NCBI RefSeq assembly: GCF_947166265.1
Contig: NZ_CAMVDO010000003.1
Coordinates: 62,001-126,000 of the forward strand
Direction of reading: 5' to 3'
DNA: 64,000 bases
Source of the DNA: an uncultured Fibrobacter sp.
GTDB lineage: Bacteria; Fibrobacterota; Fibrobacteria; Fibrobacterales; Fibrobacteraceae
A program made the position numbers and the translations under genes. Below are positions 4,062 to 62,231 of the stretch, in pieces; position 1 is the stretch's first letter; each line of letters starts with the position of its first letter. The notes beneath the pieces were generated by a model that did not search any database, had not been told where the DNA came from, and saw nothing but the letters and a program-made list of their open reading frames with translations.

Positions 4062-4069
4062 TATATTTT
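4062..4069 (+). promoter_or_regulatory. Promoter -7 box TATATTTT, 4 nt before the start codon
   Basis: TATATTTT then CGTT then ATG of the aldehyde dehydrogenase gene. It matches the Bacteroidetes-type TAnnTTTG box and would start transcription at about the ATG, implying a leaderless mRNA. Confidence 0.6.
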
Positions 4070-4073
4070 CGTT

Positions 4074-5510
4074 ATGGACGATTATTTGAAAAATCTTTTT
4101 GATTTGCAAGGTGAAAACCGTTGGGTTGTGGCAAAAACATCTGCCGAGGAACGCATCGCGAAGCTCCAGAAACTCCGCAAGGCTATCGTTAAACGTCAGC
4201 AAGAATTTTACGACGCCATCTGGGCCGACTTTCATAAGCCCAAGACCGAAGCTTGGCTCAGCGAAATCTACCCCTCCCTTCAAGAAATCGACTATGCCGT
4301 AAAGCACCTGCCCGACTGGATGGAAGACAAGGACGGCAGCTGGAGTTTCCTGTTTCCGTTAAACCATAGTCGAAGCCATTTCGAGCCCAAGGGGCGCGTC
4401 CTGATCATGGCCCCGTGGAACTATCCCTTCTTATTGTTCATCTCGCCGGTTGTTGCTGCTATCGCTGCCGGAAACGTGGTGATAGCAAAGCCGAGCCACA
4501 AGACTCCGAATGTCGCCCAATTTCTCGAATCGCTCATCGCAGAGGTTTTTCCGCAGAACGAAGTTGCCGTAGTATTAGGTGCAGGAGCGGAACTCGGAGA
4601 CCAATTGCTTTCGCTCCCCTTCGACCATGTGTTTTTTACGGGCAGTCCGAAGGTTGGCGCTCATGTGGCTGAGCTAGCCGCCAAGGTTCACGCAAGTGTT
4701 ACGCTCGAACTCGGCGGTAAATCGCCGGTAATCGTTCTAGACGATGTAAAAATCAACGATGCAGCCAAAAAAATCGCCTGGGGCAAGTGCCTGAACGCAG
4801 GCCAGACCTGCATCGCTCCCGATTATTTACTTTGTCCAGCAAAATTAGTACAGCCGCTCGCGGAAGCCATCTCCCAAGAAATCCGCAAAATGTACGGAGC
4901 CACGGAAGACATCCGCCGTAGTTGCGAAAACTTTGTACACATTGTCGATCATCATGCCGTTGAACGCCACCAGGCTCTTATCAACGAAGCACTCACCAAA
5001 GGCGCAACAGCGGTTATCGGCGGAACCTTCGCCGAAATAGACGTTCAGAACCGCTACACGCCAGCAACCGTGCTCACTGGCGTCACAGCCGACATGAAGA
5101 TTATGGAATCGGAAATTTTCGGACCGATTCTCCCGATAATCGCCTATGACTCACTCGACGAAGCTATTCAGTTCGTGCAAGCTCGCCCCAAACCGCTCGC
5201 CCTCTATGTTTTCGGAAATTCGGAATCAAAAATCAACGAAGTCATTAAGCGAACCACATCGGGTTCGACCTGCGTCAACCACTGCATTCTGCAAATTGAA
5301 AATCTGTCGGTCCCGTTCGGCGGAGTCGGCATGAGCGGCACCGGAAACTACCACGGATTCTACGGTTTCAAGAGCTTCAGCCACGAAAGGAACATCATGG
5401 AACAGGGCGCATTCGACGCCATGAATTTTCTTTATCCACCCTACCACCAGGACAACGAAAAAAGTCTCCGTGCCAGAATACAAAGGATTGCAAAGAAATT
5501 TCTCAGCTAG
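4074..5510 (+). CDS. NAD(P)-dependent aldehyde dehydrogenase (ALDH class 3-like)
   Basis: 478 residues. Oxidises aldehydes to acids with NAD(P)+. Signatures: APWNYPFLL (cofactor site), FTGSPKVGAHV (Rossmann loop), LELGGKSPVIV with the general-base Glu near residue 211, and NAGQTCIAPDY with the catalytic Cys near residue 245. This spacing fits the short class 3/fatty aldehyde dehydrogenases. The ATG at 4074 is preferred over a TTG at 4038: the family aligns from MDDYLKNLF, and a promoter-like box sits 4 bases upstream. There is no operon partner on this strand. The physiological aldehyde is not indicated. Confidence 0.9.
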   Translation: MDDYLKNLFDLQGENRWVVAKTSAEERIAKLQKLRKAIVKRQQEFYDAIWADFHKPKTEAWLSEIYPSLQEIDYAVKHLPDWMEDKDGSWSFLFPLNHSRSHFEPKGRVLIMAPWNYPFLLFISPVVAAIAAGNVVIAKPSHKTPNVAQFLESLIAEVFPQNEVAVVLGAGAELGDQLLSLPFDHVFFTGSPKVGAHVAELAAKVHASVTLELGGKSPVIVLDDVKINDAAKKIAWGKCLNAGQTCIAPDYLLCPAKLVQPLAEAISQEIRKMYGATEDIRRSCENFVHIVDHHAVERHQALINEALTKGATAVIGGTFAEIDVQNRYTPATVLTGVTADMKIMESEIFGPILPIIAYDSLDEAIQFVQARPKPLALYVFGNSESKINEVIKRTTSGSTCVNHCILQIENLSVPFGGVGMSGTGNYHGFYGFKSFSHERNIMEQGAFDAMNFLYPPYHQDNEKSLRARIQRIAKKFLS

Positions 5511-6116: not shown

Positions 6117-6950
6117 CTACTCGTCTGTTAAATTTTTGATCAAGTTCGGGAGCGCAAGTTCAAACTTGACGCCATACCAGTGAGACTTGTCTTCGTACGT
6201 CTTTTCGATACATTCCAGCACAAAGTCTGCTGCAATCCGGGCAGCGTCGACCATGGAACGTCCACGCAACATGGCACCGACAAATGCCGAGGCGTAGCAG
6301 TCTCCCGTGCCGTTAAAGCCCTTGGTAATCTTCTTGTGCTCGTAGTAGCAGAAATCCTTACCGTCGTAAAGCATCACGCCCGTGTAACCCGCGCGGAAAC
6401 CGACACCGGTCAGCACGACCGACTTGGTCCCCAGTTCGCAGAGCTTTTTGCAGAGCGTTTCAACTGTTTCGCGGTCAATGTTTTCGCTGTATTCTGTATC
6501 GGTAAGCATGCAGGCTTCGGTCATGTTCGGAAGCAAGACATCGGCCTGAGCGCACAGATCTTTCATGGCAGCGACAAATTCCATATTAAAGCCGGGGTAA
6601 AGCGCCCCATTGTCGGCCATGGCAGGGTCCACCACCCGAATCGCACCATCGACACCATTCGTGTCCATAATGTGCTGAACCATGTTAATCTGTTCGATAG
6701 AACCCAAATAACCGGTATAGAAAGCATCGAAGCGGATGTCGGCCACGCGCCAGTGTTCACTGATCGGCAACATTTCTTTGGTCAGGTCCTGGAAAGTCCA
6801 GCCCGTAAAGCCGCCCGTATGGGTCGAAAGAATCGCCGACGGAAGCACCGCAGTCTCTACACCGCACGCAGAAATAATCGGAAGTGCCACCGTAAGGGAA
6901 CACTGTCCAAAGCACGAAATATCTTGAATCGTAAGGACTCGCCTGTACAT
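6117..6950 (-). CDS. pdxY: Pyridoxal/pyridoxamine kinase
   Basis: 277-residue ribokinase-superfamily kinase that phosphorylates vitamin B6 vitamers for PLP salvage. Signatures: TIQDISCFGQCSL at the N-terminus, the HTGGFTGWTF substrate lid region, LLPNMTEACML, and GFNGTGDCYASAFVGAML, where GTGD holds the catalytic Asp and anion hole. The promoter box TATATTTG lies exactly 4 bases before the ATG with no Shine-Dalgarno sequence. It is divergent from glgB and upstream of the thioesterase gene. The choice between PdxY and a PdxK/ThiD-like enzyme rests on overall similarity. Confidence 0.87.
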   Translation of the reverse strand: MYRRVLTIQDISCFGQCSLTVALPIISACGVETAVLPSAILSTHTGGFTGWTFQDLTKEMLPISEHWRVADIRFDAFYTGYLGSIEQINMVQHIMDTNGVDGAIRVVDPAMADNGALYPGFNMEFVAAMKDLCAQADVLLPNMTEACMLTDTEYSENIDRETVETLCKKLCELGTKSVVLTGVGFRAGYTGVMLYDGKDFCYYEHKKITKGFNGTGDCYASAFVGAMLRGRSMVDAARIAADFVLECIEKTYEDKSHWYGVKFELALPNLIKNLTDE

Positions 6951-6954
6951 AGCC

Positions 6955-6962
6955 CAAATATA
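6955..6962 (-). promoter_or_regulatory. Promoter -7 box TATATTTG, 4 nt before pdxY
   Basis: Minus strand reads TATATTTG, GGCT, ATG. This is a perfect TAnnTTTG match with no room for a Shine-Dalgarno sequence. Confidence 0.65.
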
Positions 6963-6994
6963 GAATTGATGTTTCCCTTTTTTTCTTATTAAGT

Positions 6995-7002
6995 TATATT
7001 TA
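6995..7002 (+). promoter_or_regulatory. Promoter -7 box TATATTTA before glgB
   Basis: Lies 2 bases before an ATG at 7005 and 35 bases before the ATG at 7038 that has an AGGAG Shine-Dalgarno. A transcript starting about 6 bases downstream would exclude the 7005 ATG, supporting the 7038 start. Confidence 0.55.
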
Positions 7003-7037
7003 CGATGTTACAACAAGGTGTTTTACAGGAGTTGTGT

Positions 7038-41565: not shown

Positions 41566-42000
41566 CTAAATTCCTGTGCTGCCAAATCCGCCACGGTCGG
41601 CACCTTCAAGAACACCTTCTTCGAAGGTGAGCGTTGGTTGGATTTCCATGATGCGGAACTGAGCGATGCGGCTCCCCTTTTCGATTACCACGTCACGGGT
41701 GGCATAGACAGGCATTTTCCACCAGTCGTTTGCACCACAGTAGCTAGAATCGACCACGCCCACCGAATTCACCTGCAAAATGCCAAAATTCTTGAAAGTG
41801 GAGCTGCGCGGGGCAATGTGCGCCTCGTAGCCTTCAGGAAGCTTCATCGCCACCCCCAGATGAATCAAGCGGAACTCGCCCGCCTTGAGCGTCACGGTCT
41901 CTGCCGCGGCGAGGTCAATCCAGTCGGATTTGCCGCCAACGTAAGTGAGTTTCGGTATGGAATCGTCGAGATACTGAATTTTAATCGTCTGAAAAGGCAT
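41566..42000 (-). CDS. dut: dUTPase
   Basis: 144 residues of trimeric dUTPase type; hydrolyses dUTP to dUMP. Motifs: DWIDLAAAE (I), APRSSTFKNFGILQVNSVG (II), VVDSSYCGANDWWKMPV (III, longer than usual), KGSRIAQFRIM (IV) and RGGFGSTG (V). The start at 42000 is supported by a TATATTTG box exactly 4 bases upstream and by alignment from MPFQTIKIQYL; the in-frame extension upstream would lie across that promoter. No Shine-Dalgarno is possible, so the mRNA is probably leaderless. Confidence 0.9.
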   Translation of the reverse strand: MPFQTIKIQYLDDSIPKLTYVGGKSDWIDLAAAETVTLKAGEFRLIHLGVAMKLPEGYEAHIAPRSSTFKNFGILQVNSVGVVDSSYCGANDWWKMPVYATRDVVIEKGSRIAQFRIMEIQPTLTFEEGVLEGADRGGFGSTGI

Positions 42001-42004
42001 ATTG

Positions 42005-42012
42005 CAAATATA
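42005..42012 (-). promoter_or_regulatory. Promoter -7 box TATATTTG, 4 nt before dut
   Basis: Minus strand TATATTTG, CAAT, ATG; preceded by a T-run. Confidence 0.65.
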
Positions 42013-49028: not shown

Positions 49029-49919
49029 TTAATTAGGCGCCTTCGGCGCAAGTTTCCAAGCAAAACCCTTACCGCGGATTTCATTTTCAATTGTTTCTCC
49101 GGATTCCATTTCAGCACCGGCATAAATCACGGAATGCTTGAGTGTCACACCAGCAGGCACCTGAACGCCTTCTTCAACAACGGCTTCGTCTGGGCTGCGA
49201 CCAAGTTCCTTGAGGCGAGCTTCCACCGCCGCCATCAATCCCTCAGGCGAGCCCATGTCAATCCAAGTCGCATGCAGCTGCGTCATATCCACAAACGGGG
49301 CGCGACCAGCAGCAATCTCTTGCTTCCAGAATTCGCGGATATCGAATTCACCGTCGCAAATTCGCGAAAGCGCCTCGTCACTGTACCAGGAAACACCCGA
49401 GAACGTAGCAGGCAAACCGTCTTCACTACCGAAACGACCGACCACACCCGCCAAGCGACCATCAGGCCCCACGCGAAACGTATTCACCTTCGGAAAATCG
49501 ACTGCGAGCAAGGCCACCTGCGGGCCGTTCGGCTGGGCGGCCAATGCCTGCGCATTCCGAACAAAAGCGTTTAGGTCAAAATTACAATAGGCGTCCCCAT
49601 TCATAATCAGGAGACCACCACGGTAGCCCTCGTTATAAATGCGACGTAAAGGCCCTGCCGTTCCAAGAATTTCGGGCAGTTCCACCCAGACTTTTTCAAA
49701 GCCAAGTTTCTCCCCTGCCGCCACCACCTGGTCCGCCAGGTAATGCGCATTCGCGTGTAAACGAATGTTCCCAATCGTACGCGCCTTTCGGGCCTGCAAA
49801 TCCAGAATCGAGGCGTCCACCACGGGGACGAGCGGTTTTGGCGTATCATTTGTAAGCGGGCGCAAACGCGTCCCGAGGCCCGCCGCCAAGATCAACACAT
49901 TCAGGGAATCCATTTCCAT
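49029..49919 (-). CDS. Sugar-phosphate nucleotidyltransferase (MurU-like)
   Basis: 296 residues. The start signature VLILAAGLGTRLRPLTNDTP and KPLVPV are the nucleotide and substrate-phosphate loops; LLIMNGDAYCNFDL holds the metal Asp. The C-terminus adds a hexapeptide-like stretch (VTLKHSVIYAGAEMESGETI). It is closest in feel to MurNAc-1-P uridylyltransferases and mannose-1-P guanylyltransferases, so the sugar is uncertain. The ATG at 49919 is supported by a TAAATTTG box 5 bases upstream and no Shine-Dalgarno; an ATG at 49913 is the alternative. Confidence 0.8.
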   Translation of the reverse strand: MEMDSLNVLILAAGLGTRLRPLTNDTPKPLVPVVDASILDLQARKARTIGNIRLHANAHYLADQVVAAGEKLGFEKVWVELPEILGTAGPLRRIYNEGYRGGLLIMNGDAYCNFDLNAFVRNAQALAAQPNGPQVALLAVDFPKVNTFRVGPDGRLAGVVGRFGSEDGLPATFSGVSWYSDEALSRICDGEFDIREFWKQEIAAGRAPFVDMTQLHATWIDMGSPEGLMAAVEARLKELGRSPDEAVVEEGVQVPAGVTLKHSVIYAGAEMESGETIENEIRGKGFAWKLAPKAPN

Positions 49920-49924
49920 TGCCA

Positions 49925-49932
49925 CAAATTTA
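49925..49932 (-). promoter_or_regulatory. Promoter -7 box TAAATTTG, 5 nt before the start
   Basis: Minus strand TAAATTTG, TGGCA, ATG. Perfect TAnnTTTG match. Confidence 0.55.
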
Positions 49933-53230: not shown

Positions 53231-53893
53231 TCAATCCAGTCCGAGAATCAGGCGAATCGCTGTCAAAGCCTGGTGAGCAGCACAGAGCATCACACGCGGA
53301 GCGATCAAGCCGATTCCGTCATTCACATCACTTTTGCCGTCACCACAGACATAAAAACGTTTTGTCACCTTGCGGGTCGTAATCGAATTCCCGCTAGCGT
53401 AGCCCGCCATTCCAGATGCCGCGACCAGAAACTTTTCGGGCATATTTTCAAGCACCGTATTCACGAGCATCGCCTTCGCCTCGGCATTGTCGAACGCCTC
53501 GCAAATCAAGTCCGCTTTCGCAAGCAGCGACACCGCATTATCAGCGGTCACTTTTTCGAAATGCATCTCGAATTCCGTATACGGGGCAACCTCTTTCAAG
53601 TTCGCAAGGAGCGCCTCGGGCTTCGGCATGCCCACCTGATTCGCCTTGTACTGCTGCCGATGCAAGTTCGTCACATCGACGCGGTCAAAGTCTATCAGGA
53701 TCAGTTTCCCGACACCGGCACGAGCAAGCGAAATGGCAATATTCGAACCGAGTCCACCAAGGCCACAAACGGCAACCGTCGTCGCCTGCAACTTGCGCAC
53801 GGCATCCTTTCCCTGCCGCTTTTCAAGTGCAGCAAGCATCTCTTCGCGAGAGGGAACGCAAGAATCGCGCGTCTGTGAACAAGCGTCAGCCAT
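53231..53893 (-). CDS. thiF: ThiS adenylyltransferase
   Basis: 220 residues, E1-like enzyme that adenylates the ThiS C-terminus before sulfur transfer. ATP-binding [40 protein letters not shown] and the Arg/Lys positions downstream are intact; the C-terminal part is short (ThiF length is usually 220-250), with only scattered Cys and no clear zinc CxxC pairs. The ATG at 53893 overlaps the thiS stop as TGATG; a GTG three bases upstream is also possible. The middle gene of thiS-thiF-thiG. Confidence 0.9.
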
Positions 53894-54087
53894 CACCCGC
53901 CGCCTACGAAATTCACGACCTCGACGACATCGCCGTCGGCAAGCACCGTCTCGGCATACTTTGCCTTCGGAACAATTTCCTCGTTCCGTTCCACAGCGAT
54001 GCGTACGGTATTGTACCCCGCTTCTGCAAGATATTCAGCAACGGTCTTCCCCGCCGCATCGACACTCTGTCCATTAATAGTAAGCAT
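53893..54087 (-). CDS. thiS: Sulfur carrier protein ThiS
   Basis: 64-residue ubiquitin-like carrier beginning MLTINGQSVDAAGKTVAEYL and ending VVEVVNFVGGG, where the terminal Gly-Gly is the site of adenylation and thiocarboxylate formation. The final residue is a third Gly, matching the usual GG ending closely. The start at 54087 lies 4 bases after a TATATTTG box with no Shine-Dalgarno. It overlaps thiF (TGATG), so the pair is coupled. No TPP riboswitch is visible in the 38 bases before it. Confidence 0.92.
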   Translation of the reverse strand: MLTINGQSVDAAGKTVAEYLAEAGYNTVRIAVERNEEIVPKAKYAETVLADGDVVEVVNFVGGG

Positions 54088-54091
54088 AGAA

Positions 54092-54099
54092 CAAATATA
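54092..54099 (-). promoter_or_regulatory. Promoter -7 box TATATTTG, 4 nt before thiS
   Basis: Minus strand TATATTTG, TTCT, ATG; same spacing as dut and pdxY. Confidence 0.62.
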
Positions 54100-60253: not shown

Positions 60254-60261
60254 TATATTTT
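60254..60261 (+). promoter_or_regulatory. Promoter -7 box TATATTTT, 5 nt before the start
   Basis: TATATTTT, AGTCC, ATG of the sulfatase-fold transferase gene. Confidence 0.58.
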
Positions 60262-60266
60262 AGTCC

Positions 60267-62231
60267 ATGAAAAAAGATGCAACAAATAACGATTTTTCCC
60301 ATACAAATTTCTTTTTCTGGTTTATTTTCGGCTTAATTCTTATCGCCGGACGATTCGCCCTCCTCTGCTCGCTTTACATGCTGGATACCCCCACCGGAAC
60401 ATCCCTTGTACCGGACTACAACCGTTTTCTTTGGCACACCCTTTACGAAGAAATCGGGTTCGGCATGGCCCTATCGCTGATTTTCTTCACCATTTCACGT
60501 TTTGTCCGCGAAAAAGGCCTAAAATTCGTCAAGATCGCCGCAGTCATTTGTGCAGCCATCTACCTGACCCTGAGCGGAACCGACGACGAAATACAGCGCT
60601 GGATGAGCCAAAAGCTCTCTATATCCTTTATCAAGACCTACTGCAACGCCTGGAACGATATGGGACTTGTCTCCAAGATCGCCCTCGGCGGAATTCAGCA
60701 CTTCCTGTTGACGGTTGGCCTAGTGATTCTAACCGTGACTGGACTTTCCATCTTTTCGTACAAGCATGACATTCGCGGCATTTGGCAGCGGCCCATTCAA
60801 AAAAAGACCTGGATTACGCTCGGCATGATGATTGTCTTTGCCGCCCTCGGATGCACGTCGCACCTGTGGTATAACTATTCCCAACACCGCTGGGACCGAA
60901 TTCGCCCCGTAGTCTACACACTTGTCGGAGACGTCATCGAAGAATTTGAATCAAAGGAGGAACCGCCTGACTACGCAGAAGGTATCAGGCTTATGGGCGG
61001 AAACCCCGACAAAGAATACCCCTTCTGGAAAGAAAACCCGAACGAAGCCACTTCTATCGAAACATTCAAGTCAAAGCCACTCGAAGAAAAGCCCGATATT
61101 CTTCTAATGACTATCGAATCCCTCCGTGGCTGGACATGCGACATGCGCGTCGAATCCAACTGCAAGCTTTTCCCCAACTTGTGCAGACTTTCCAAGCAAG
61201 GGCTTTATTTTCCCAATGCCTACAGCGTCGGTAACCCCTCTGTAGAAGGGCTGCTCGGAATCATGACCGGCGTCAACAGCCACTCCACCAAGACCCTTCT
61301 AAGAGACTACCCCAACACAAACCTTCGCGCCTTCTCCGAAGTCCTTTCCGAAGCAGGCTACTACAACGAAGTCATTCTAGGAGCGGATCCCCGTTTCGAC
61401 AACGAAGAAGCGTGGTACACCAAGTGGTTCGATTATCACGAATTCAAGCCCGAATACGAAGATGACGTTTCTTCGGCCTTGCGCTTTGTGGAACGCTACC
61501 GTATGCGCCCCAAGGACAAGCCCACCTTTTTCCATTGGATGAGCCTTAGCATGCACACGCCATTCGTGTTGCCCGCCGAACTGGGTGAAACTCCGGAAGA
61601 CCCCGGAGAGGCCTACTTAAGGGCAACGGCCTATATGGACAGCGCTGTAGGCATTATCCTCGACTCGCTTGCAACAGACCCACGATTCCAAAACACCCTC
61701 ATCATTTTGACCGGCGACCACTCCACGCCCAACGGCAAGCAACAACAAGAATCTGGACGCATCGGAATGGGCAACGAAGGCTATTCGTGGATTTCCATCA
61801 TGATGAGCGGCCCAAACATCTCCCCCGCCATAGACAAGCGAATCGTATCGCAGGCAAACATCGCGCCTTCCATCATGGCGTACCTGGGTCTCGAAGTTTC
61901 TAACCACTACATGGGAATCAACCTGTTCGACGACTCGCTCGCCACAAAGGAACTCCCCGCCGTGTATTCTTACAAATACGGAAGCATGGCGATGCGCAGC
62001 GATTCCATGTCGTACTACATTTTCCCCGTCGAAGGAACAGACCCGGCCGTCGCCCAGAAAGTTCTCCTGGACCCCACCTGGGATACGACAAATCCGGCAG
62101 ACGGCTTTGTCACGGGCACTCCCGTCGAATTGCCGAAAGACTCCCTAAACGAAATAGCACGCAAGATGCGTGCTATTGCAAGAGCTTGGAATTTTGTAGT
62201 CCACCAGAACAAGGTGATGCCGCCAAGATAA
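60267..62231 (+). CDS. Membrane phosphoglycerol-transferase-like enzyme (LtaS/sulfatase fold)
   Basis: 654 residues. Five membrane helices in the first ~200 residues, then an alkaline-phosphatase-superfamily domain: PDILLMTIESLRGWTCDMRV (metal-site Glu/Ser region), AYSVGNPSVEGLLGIMTGVN (position of the nucleophile; Ser in place of the usual Thr), FFHWMSLSMHTPFVLP and LIILTGDHSTPNG (metal-binding Asp-His). The layout is that of LtaS/OpgB/EptA-type enzymes that move phosphoglycerol or phosphoethanolamine from lipids to glycans. There is no Shine-Dalgarno; the promoter-like box is 5 bases before the ATG. Facing it on the other strand is the nucleotidyltransferase/aminotransferase pair. Confidence 0.83.
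   Translation: MKKDATNNDFSHTNFFFWFIFGLILIAGRFALLCSLYMLDTPTGTSLVPDYNRFLWHTLYEEIGFGMALSLIFFTISRFVREKGLKFVKIAAVICAAIYLTLSGTDDEIQRWMSQKLSISFIKTYCNAWNDMGLVSKIALGGIQHFLLTVGLVILTVTGLSIFSYKHDIRGIWQRPIQKKTWITLGMMIVFAALGCTSHLWYNYSQHRWDRIRPVVYTLVGDVIEEFESKEEPPDYAEGIRLMGGNPDKEYPFWKENPNEATSIETFKSKPLEEKPDILLMTIESLRGWTCDMRVESNCKLFPNLCRLSKQGLYFPNAYSVGNPSVEGLLGIMTGVNSHSTKTLLRDYPNTNLRAFSEVLSEAGYYNEVILGADPRFDNEEAWYTKWFDYHEFKPEYEDDVSSALRFVERYRMRPKDKPTFFHWMSLSMHTPFVLPAELGETPEDPGEAYLRATAYMDSAVGIILDSLATDPRFQNTLIILTGDHSTPNGKQQQESGRIGMGNEGYSWISIMMSGPNISPAIDKRIVSQANIAPSIMAYLGLEVSNHYMGINLFDDSLATKELPAVYSYKYGSMAMRSDSMSYYIFPVEGTDPAVAQKVLLDPTWDTTNPADGFVTGTPVELPKDSLNEIARKMRAIARAWNFVVHQNKVMPPR

Follow-up and report, generated by a model that had tools for sequence, protein, structure and literature searches.

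A promoter-like box four to five bases before ATG and predicted leaderless genes in Fibrobacter

Genes and boxes in the window

The window, that is, the whole 64,000-nt stretch of DNA analysed, carries six genes whose ATG is closely preceded by a TATATTT-like box (Table 1). Throughout, d is the number of bases between the end of the box and the start codon, and SD stands for Shine-Dalgarno sequence. The initial annotation had placed boxes at d=4 before dut, pdxY, thiS and the aldehyde dehydrogenase gene, and at d=5 before the starts at 49919 and 60267, and had claimed that all of these genes lack an SD. All six boxes were found at these positions and spacings. The tetramers GGAG, GAGG, AAGG and AGGA are absent from -17 to -4 in all six genes. 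The names given to the six gene products agree, at the family level, with their Pfam families.

Table 1. Boxes and associated genes in the window
Feature	Position	Strand	Remarks
Aldehyde dehydrogenase box TATATTTT	4062-4069	+	d=4 to ATG 4074
Aldehyde dehydrogenase, predicted leaderless	4074-5510	+	Pfam Aldedh; ATG 4074 replaces TTG 4038
pdxY-like box TATATTTG	6955-6962	-	d=4 to ATG 6950; orthologues compared
pdxY-like kinase, predicted leaderless	6117-6950	-	Phos_pyr_kin PF08543; ATG 6950
dut box TATATTTG	42005-42012	-	d=4 to ATG 42000; conserved in 20 unrelated upstream contexts
dut (dUTPase), predicted leaderless	41566-42000	-	PF00692 and homologues; ATG 42000
Nucleotidyl transferase box TAAATTTG	49925-49932	-	d=5 to ATG 49919; orthologues differ
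Nucleotidyl transferase, probably leaderless or with 1-base leader	49029-49919	-	Pfam NTP_transferase; ATG 49919, not GTG 49973
thiS box TATATTTG	54092-54099	-	d=4 to ATG 54087; conserved in 11 unrelated contexts
thiS, predicted leaderless	53893-54087	-	ThiS PF02597; ATG 54087
Sulfatase-family box TATATTTT	60254-60261	+	d=5 to ATG 60267
Sulfatase-family protein, predicted leaderless or with 1-base leader	60267-62231	+	Pfam Sulfatase

The boxes had also been held to fix start sites, and two starts would be corrected. For the aldehyde dehydrogenase gene (TTG 4038 to ATG 4074) both the box and the ATG are repeated in the orthologue L155. For the nucleotidyl transferase gene (GTG 49973 to ATG 49919) orthologue support is weak because the start context varies among the relatives: in several the gene lies close behind another gene, and others have a candidate box at d=8. 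The ATG of pdxY is also used in two order-level relatives (L130, L131), but there with a GGAG-type SD.

Spacing of the box before start codons

A histogram of box-to-start distances was run on 864 kb of the same genome, window included, with the box taken as TAHHTTT and the starts as ATGs at the head of ORFs with 100 codons or more. It gave 25 boxes at d=4 and 27 at d=5 versus about 5 (mostly 2-9) at other distances. In the same histogram GTG, TTG, ATA and ACG had no peak at d=4-5 after TAHHTTT. The peak is limited to ATG, in keeping with the AUG preference of leaderless genes.

Pattern counts over the whole 3.77 Mb genome agree. The exact form TATATTTGNNNNATG (TATATTTG-N4-ATG) has 19 occurrences versus none for the reversed control, while TATATTTN{5,6}ATG (TATATTT-N5/6-ATG) occurs 104 times against 12 for the reversed pattern. 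When the box was set ten bases farther away (TATATTTN{15,16}ATG) the counts were 32 and 21. Genomes of Lachnospiraceae and Bacteroidaceae, used as controls for the patterns, gave about 1.4-3:1 over the reversed control. Among 288 ATG genes standing first in a transcription unit, 30 have TAHHTTT at d=4-6; the mean in 200 dinucleotide shuffles was 2.7 (sd 1.6, maximum 9). The arrangement of box before ATG is far above chance.

Two classes of first genes

For a gene-based view we used a simple gene caller that relies on coding potential and is blind to both box and SD; it called 573 genes whose upstream neighbour is known, and the starts of the first-in-unit and internal genes are its output. Among first genes lacking an SD (n=171) TAHHTTTN ends at d=4, 5 and 6 in 12, 14 and 5 cases, with 0-3 at each other position. 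First genes with an SD (n=117) lack the box at d=0-13; it is frequent at d=25-32 (mode 27), and these genes carry the motif 17-45 bases upstream. Genes that stand first in a transcription unit thus split into those with a box at d=4-6 and no SD, and those with an SD and a box at least 14 bases away. A box at d=4 and an SD exclude each other in part trivially, because both would fill the same bases; the mode at d=27 in SD-led genes is not forced by this overlap.

Within operons 58% of the genes have an SD and the box is rare. It stands at d=4-6 in 3 of 51 internal genes without an SD versus 30 of 171 first genes without one, a difference of borderline significance (p=0.04). A de novo motif search on first genes, blind to box and position, returned wTTTnC-TATATTT, whose end (in terms of the 8-base box) lies at d=4-6. 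Using the motif model and the counts after shuffle correction, we put the share of likely leaderless first genes at some 10-16%, roughly 120-200 per genome.

Sequence of the box and the initiator

The Fibrobacter element reads cTATATTt. It had been equated with the TAnnTTTG -7 element of Bacteroidetes, and this match is only partial because the final G is infrequent and the companion -33 TTTG was not seen. The TAHHTTT core stands, since the de novo motif is TATATTT with G at 0.01-0.07 at both H positions. The final G (-5) is not near-invariant, since 34% of all boxes at d=4-6 carry it and 44% of those at d=4. Between -35 and -8 relative to the box there is no informative block that would correspond to the -33 TTTG, although such an element could escape notice if its distance varied.

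The -7 box of Flavobacterium johnsoniae lies between -12 and -5 relative to the transcription start (PMC6847099); with d=4, +1 would then fall on the A of the start codon. The base just ahead of the start codon agrees with this. A pyrimidine stands there in 18/18 first genes with d=4, in 24/25 d=4 cases of the ORF-based count and in 31/31 distinct dut and thiS contexts, versus 48% of operon-internal genes; such a pyrimidine is expected of a Y(-1)A(+1) transcription start. The 4-base spacer is otherwise random. At d=6 the -1 base is a non-pyrimidine in most of the few cases.

Conservation at dut and thiS

Homologues of dut with 81-95% identity occur in dozens of Fibrobacter genomes. Among the 49 loci of at least 80% identity, 24 have the box at d=4-6, none of these with an SD. 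The 24 fall into 20 upstream contexts whose mutual similarity is no better than chance (0.26 over -60 to -21); identity rises to 0.76 over the box and is 0.33 over -4 to -2. For thiS the box is at d=4-6 in 12 of 16 loci, representing 11 contexts, again with no SD (0/12). Taking both genes, pairwise identity is 0.24-0.26 upstream (-60 to -21), 0.71-0.76 over the box and 0.25-0.33 at -4 to -2. Judged by these identities, the 31 unrelated Fibrobacteraceae contexts have nothing in common except the box, the spacing and Y(-1)A(+1).

Other homologues are arranged differently. At 60-80% identity (n=30, nearly all Lachnospiraceae) dut has an SD in 27 cases and a box at d=4-6 in none. Some Fibrobacter dut orthologues (L079-L082, L087) have the box about 20-30 bases upstream together with a purine-rich, mostly AAGG-type SD, and some orthologues of boxed genes have it at d=7-9. 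Instead of the box, thiS genes of a sister group carry a TPP riboswitch together with GGAGG, which is SD-like; the window itself contains no match to the TPP riboswitch.

Taxonomic range

Among 151 genomes of the phylum every Fibrobacter genome has a strong excess at d=4-5, and the excess extends through the family; in the remaining families of the class it is small in absolute number, and most other classes show it weakly or not at all. In gene-based histograms a second genus (G033) gave 17 boxes at d=4-6 versus 5.3 expected from farther positions, and a Bacteroidaceae genome 6 versus 4.8, its boxes being spread over 20-60 bases. In 198 kb of G057, a more GC-rich member of the same class, there was no clear spacing peak. 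Patterns for the 16S end recovered no anti-SD in five genomes, where the rRNA is possibly missing or masked and the second pattern was ill suited.

Primary sigma factor

The sole sigma factor in the genome with a region-3 match (G000:C1:271317, L121) is 284 aa long from the chosen ATG. It possesses regions 1.2, 2, 3 and 4 and lacks region 1.1. It aligns with the primary sigma factor of Bacteroidaceae, with which it shares KFISYAVWW; the long sigma factors of another class of the phylum (L259) and of another family of the same class (L265) read KFSTYATWW. This fits a Bacteroidetes-like holoenzyme, in which L121 would recognize the box.

Interpretation

The initial annotation predicted that these messages begin at or next to the start codon. 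The spacing peak, Y(-1)A(+1), the restriction to ATG, the two gene classes, the conservation of box and spacing across unrelated contexts and the architecture of the sigma factor were all observed directly, and the first five support this prediction. We consider it very probable that the box is the housekeeping -10 element and that at d=4-5 it yields a leaderless mRNA, SD leaders coexisting. The element (-7 in Bacteroidetes numbering) would be read by the short primary sigma without region 1.1. With the box ending 4-5 bases before the ATG, RNA polymerase would start on the A or one base off, picking the pyrimidine-adenine step and producing an mRNA without a leader, on which the ribosome would start at the 5'-terminal AUG without an SD. 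In the same cell SD leaders would serve first genes with longer leaders and operon-internal genes.

Rather improbable is that the boxes are true promoters with very short (1-8 base) leaders, or secondary promoters of genes read mainly from farther upstream. Any gene may have a second, upstream promoter, and the range of d (4 to 6, with 7-9 in some orthologues) and the mostly non-pyrimidine -1 base at d=6 would suit short leaders, but the peak lies at d=4-5 and goes with Y(-1)A(+1), which would place +1 at the ATG itself, and no SD is near enough to serve a leader of that length.

We think it very unlikely that the box acts in translation, as an A/U-rich signal of the S1 or Kozak-like type known from Bacteroidetes, within a 5' leader transcribed from farther upstream. 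Such upstream AT-rich signals aid initiation in Bacteroidetes (PMC6847099, PMC9581028) and the sequence is U-rich; in SD-led first genes, however, the motif lies out of reach of the start codon, operon-internal genes without an SD seldom have it, and its spacing is sharp to 1-2 bases across a spacer that is random save for the -1 pyrimidine. On these grounds the box was rejected as a translation enhancer. Chance, by which AT-rich intergenic DNA, often holding TATATTT-like words, lies beside start codons, would yield boxes at any distance and has a negligible claim, refuted as it is by the shuffles, the reversed-pattern and spacing controls and the conservation in unrelated contexts.

The leaderless start is a known class in bacteria, where such genes are widespread (PMC3160421) and 21.6% of species are predicted to use them (cited in PMC9581028). 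TA-led leaderless genes of Actinobacteria, Deinococcus-Thermus and others (Zheng et al. 2011, PMC3160421; GeneMarkS-2 class, PMC9581028) share with Fibrobacter a TA box of the -10 type, placed about 12 bases upstream of the start. In both there is no SD, and SD-led genes stand alongside (PMC3160421). The logos of PMC3160421 are of the TAnnnT type and come from other phyla, in contrast to cTATATTt, and Fibrobacter is not named in its main text. With the sigma-ABfr promoters of Bacteroidetes (-33 TTTG / -7 TAnnTTTG; PMC6847099, PMC7366714, PMC9723704) the box has in common TA, two non-G bases and TT(T), along with a short primary sigma without region 1.1 and an expected position of -12 to -5. 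Unlike these, in Fibrobacter the G is optional, no -33 element is seen and the SD is in use; the -33 element was likewise not seen in F. johnsoniae, according to PMC7366714. Bacteroidetes messages are mostly leadered (PMC6847099, PMC7366714, PMC9723704): among these reports, 3.7% of 5' UTRs in B. thetaiotaomicron are shorter than 10 nt and 5.5% are leaderless in F. psychrophilum, and in F. johnsoniae 13% have leaders of at most 10 nt (PMC6847099). For Fibrobacter we found no earlier description of leaderless genes in a literature search whose scope excluded most subscription journals.

We suggest tentatively, and with somewhat less than even confidence, that Fibrobacteraceae possess, as a standard alternative to the SD leader, a promoter-start module some 17 bases long. 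It may be taken on by genes that have moved, have become first in a unit or were acquired from SD-using donors, and may replace even the TPP riboswitch leader of thiS. As part of the same possible scheme the module would consist of a T-rich stretch, the TATATTTG box, a 4-base spacer ending in a pyrimidine, and the ATG.

Fibrobacter is one of the main cellulose degraders of the rumen, and to our knowledge little is known of how transcription and translation begin in this genus. A leaderless class would provide a practical rule, about 17 bases long, for promoter plus start and would allow annotated start codons to be corrected. Having no 5' UTR, such genes could not carry riboswitches there. Orthologues that are leaderless in some cases and SD-led in others would be a natural experiment on the interchange of both modes.

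Other observations

The pdxY and branching-enzyme (glgB) genes form a divergent pair across a 54-base gap (window 6951-7005) with one box per gene. The glgB box (6995-7002) ends just 2 bases ahead of ATG 7005, so that this ATG may be wrong or initiation may differ.

The nearest group to dut (window 41566-42000, L041-L120) outside Fibrobacter is the Lachnospiraceae dUTPases; the gene stands in many unrelated contexts and sometimes occurs twice in one assembly (L042/L048, L077/L089). This kinship and the scattered and duplicate contexts suggest horizontal transfer and repeated movement.

In Fibrobacter the thiS loci L314, L315, L317 and L318 have a TPP riboswitch and GGAGG, and L302-L313 are predicted to be leaderless with no riboswitch match; vitamin control appears to have been acquired or lost within a single gene. 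The class-level thiS loci L323, L327 and L329, which are GC-richer, have TATCTTT-type boxes about 7-9 bases before the start, perhaps a shifted form of the same arrangement.
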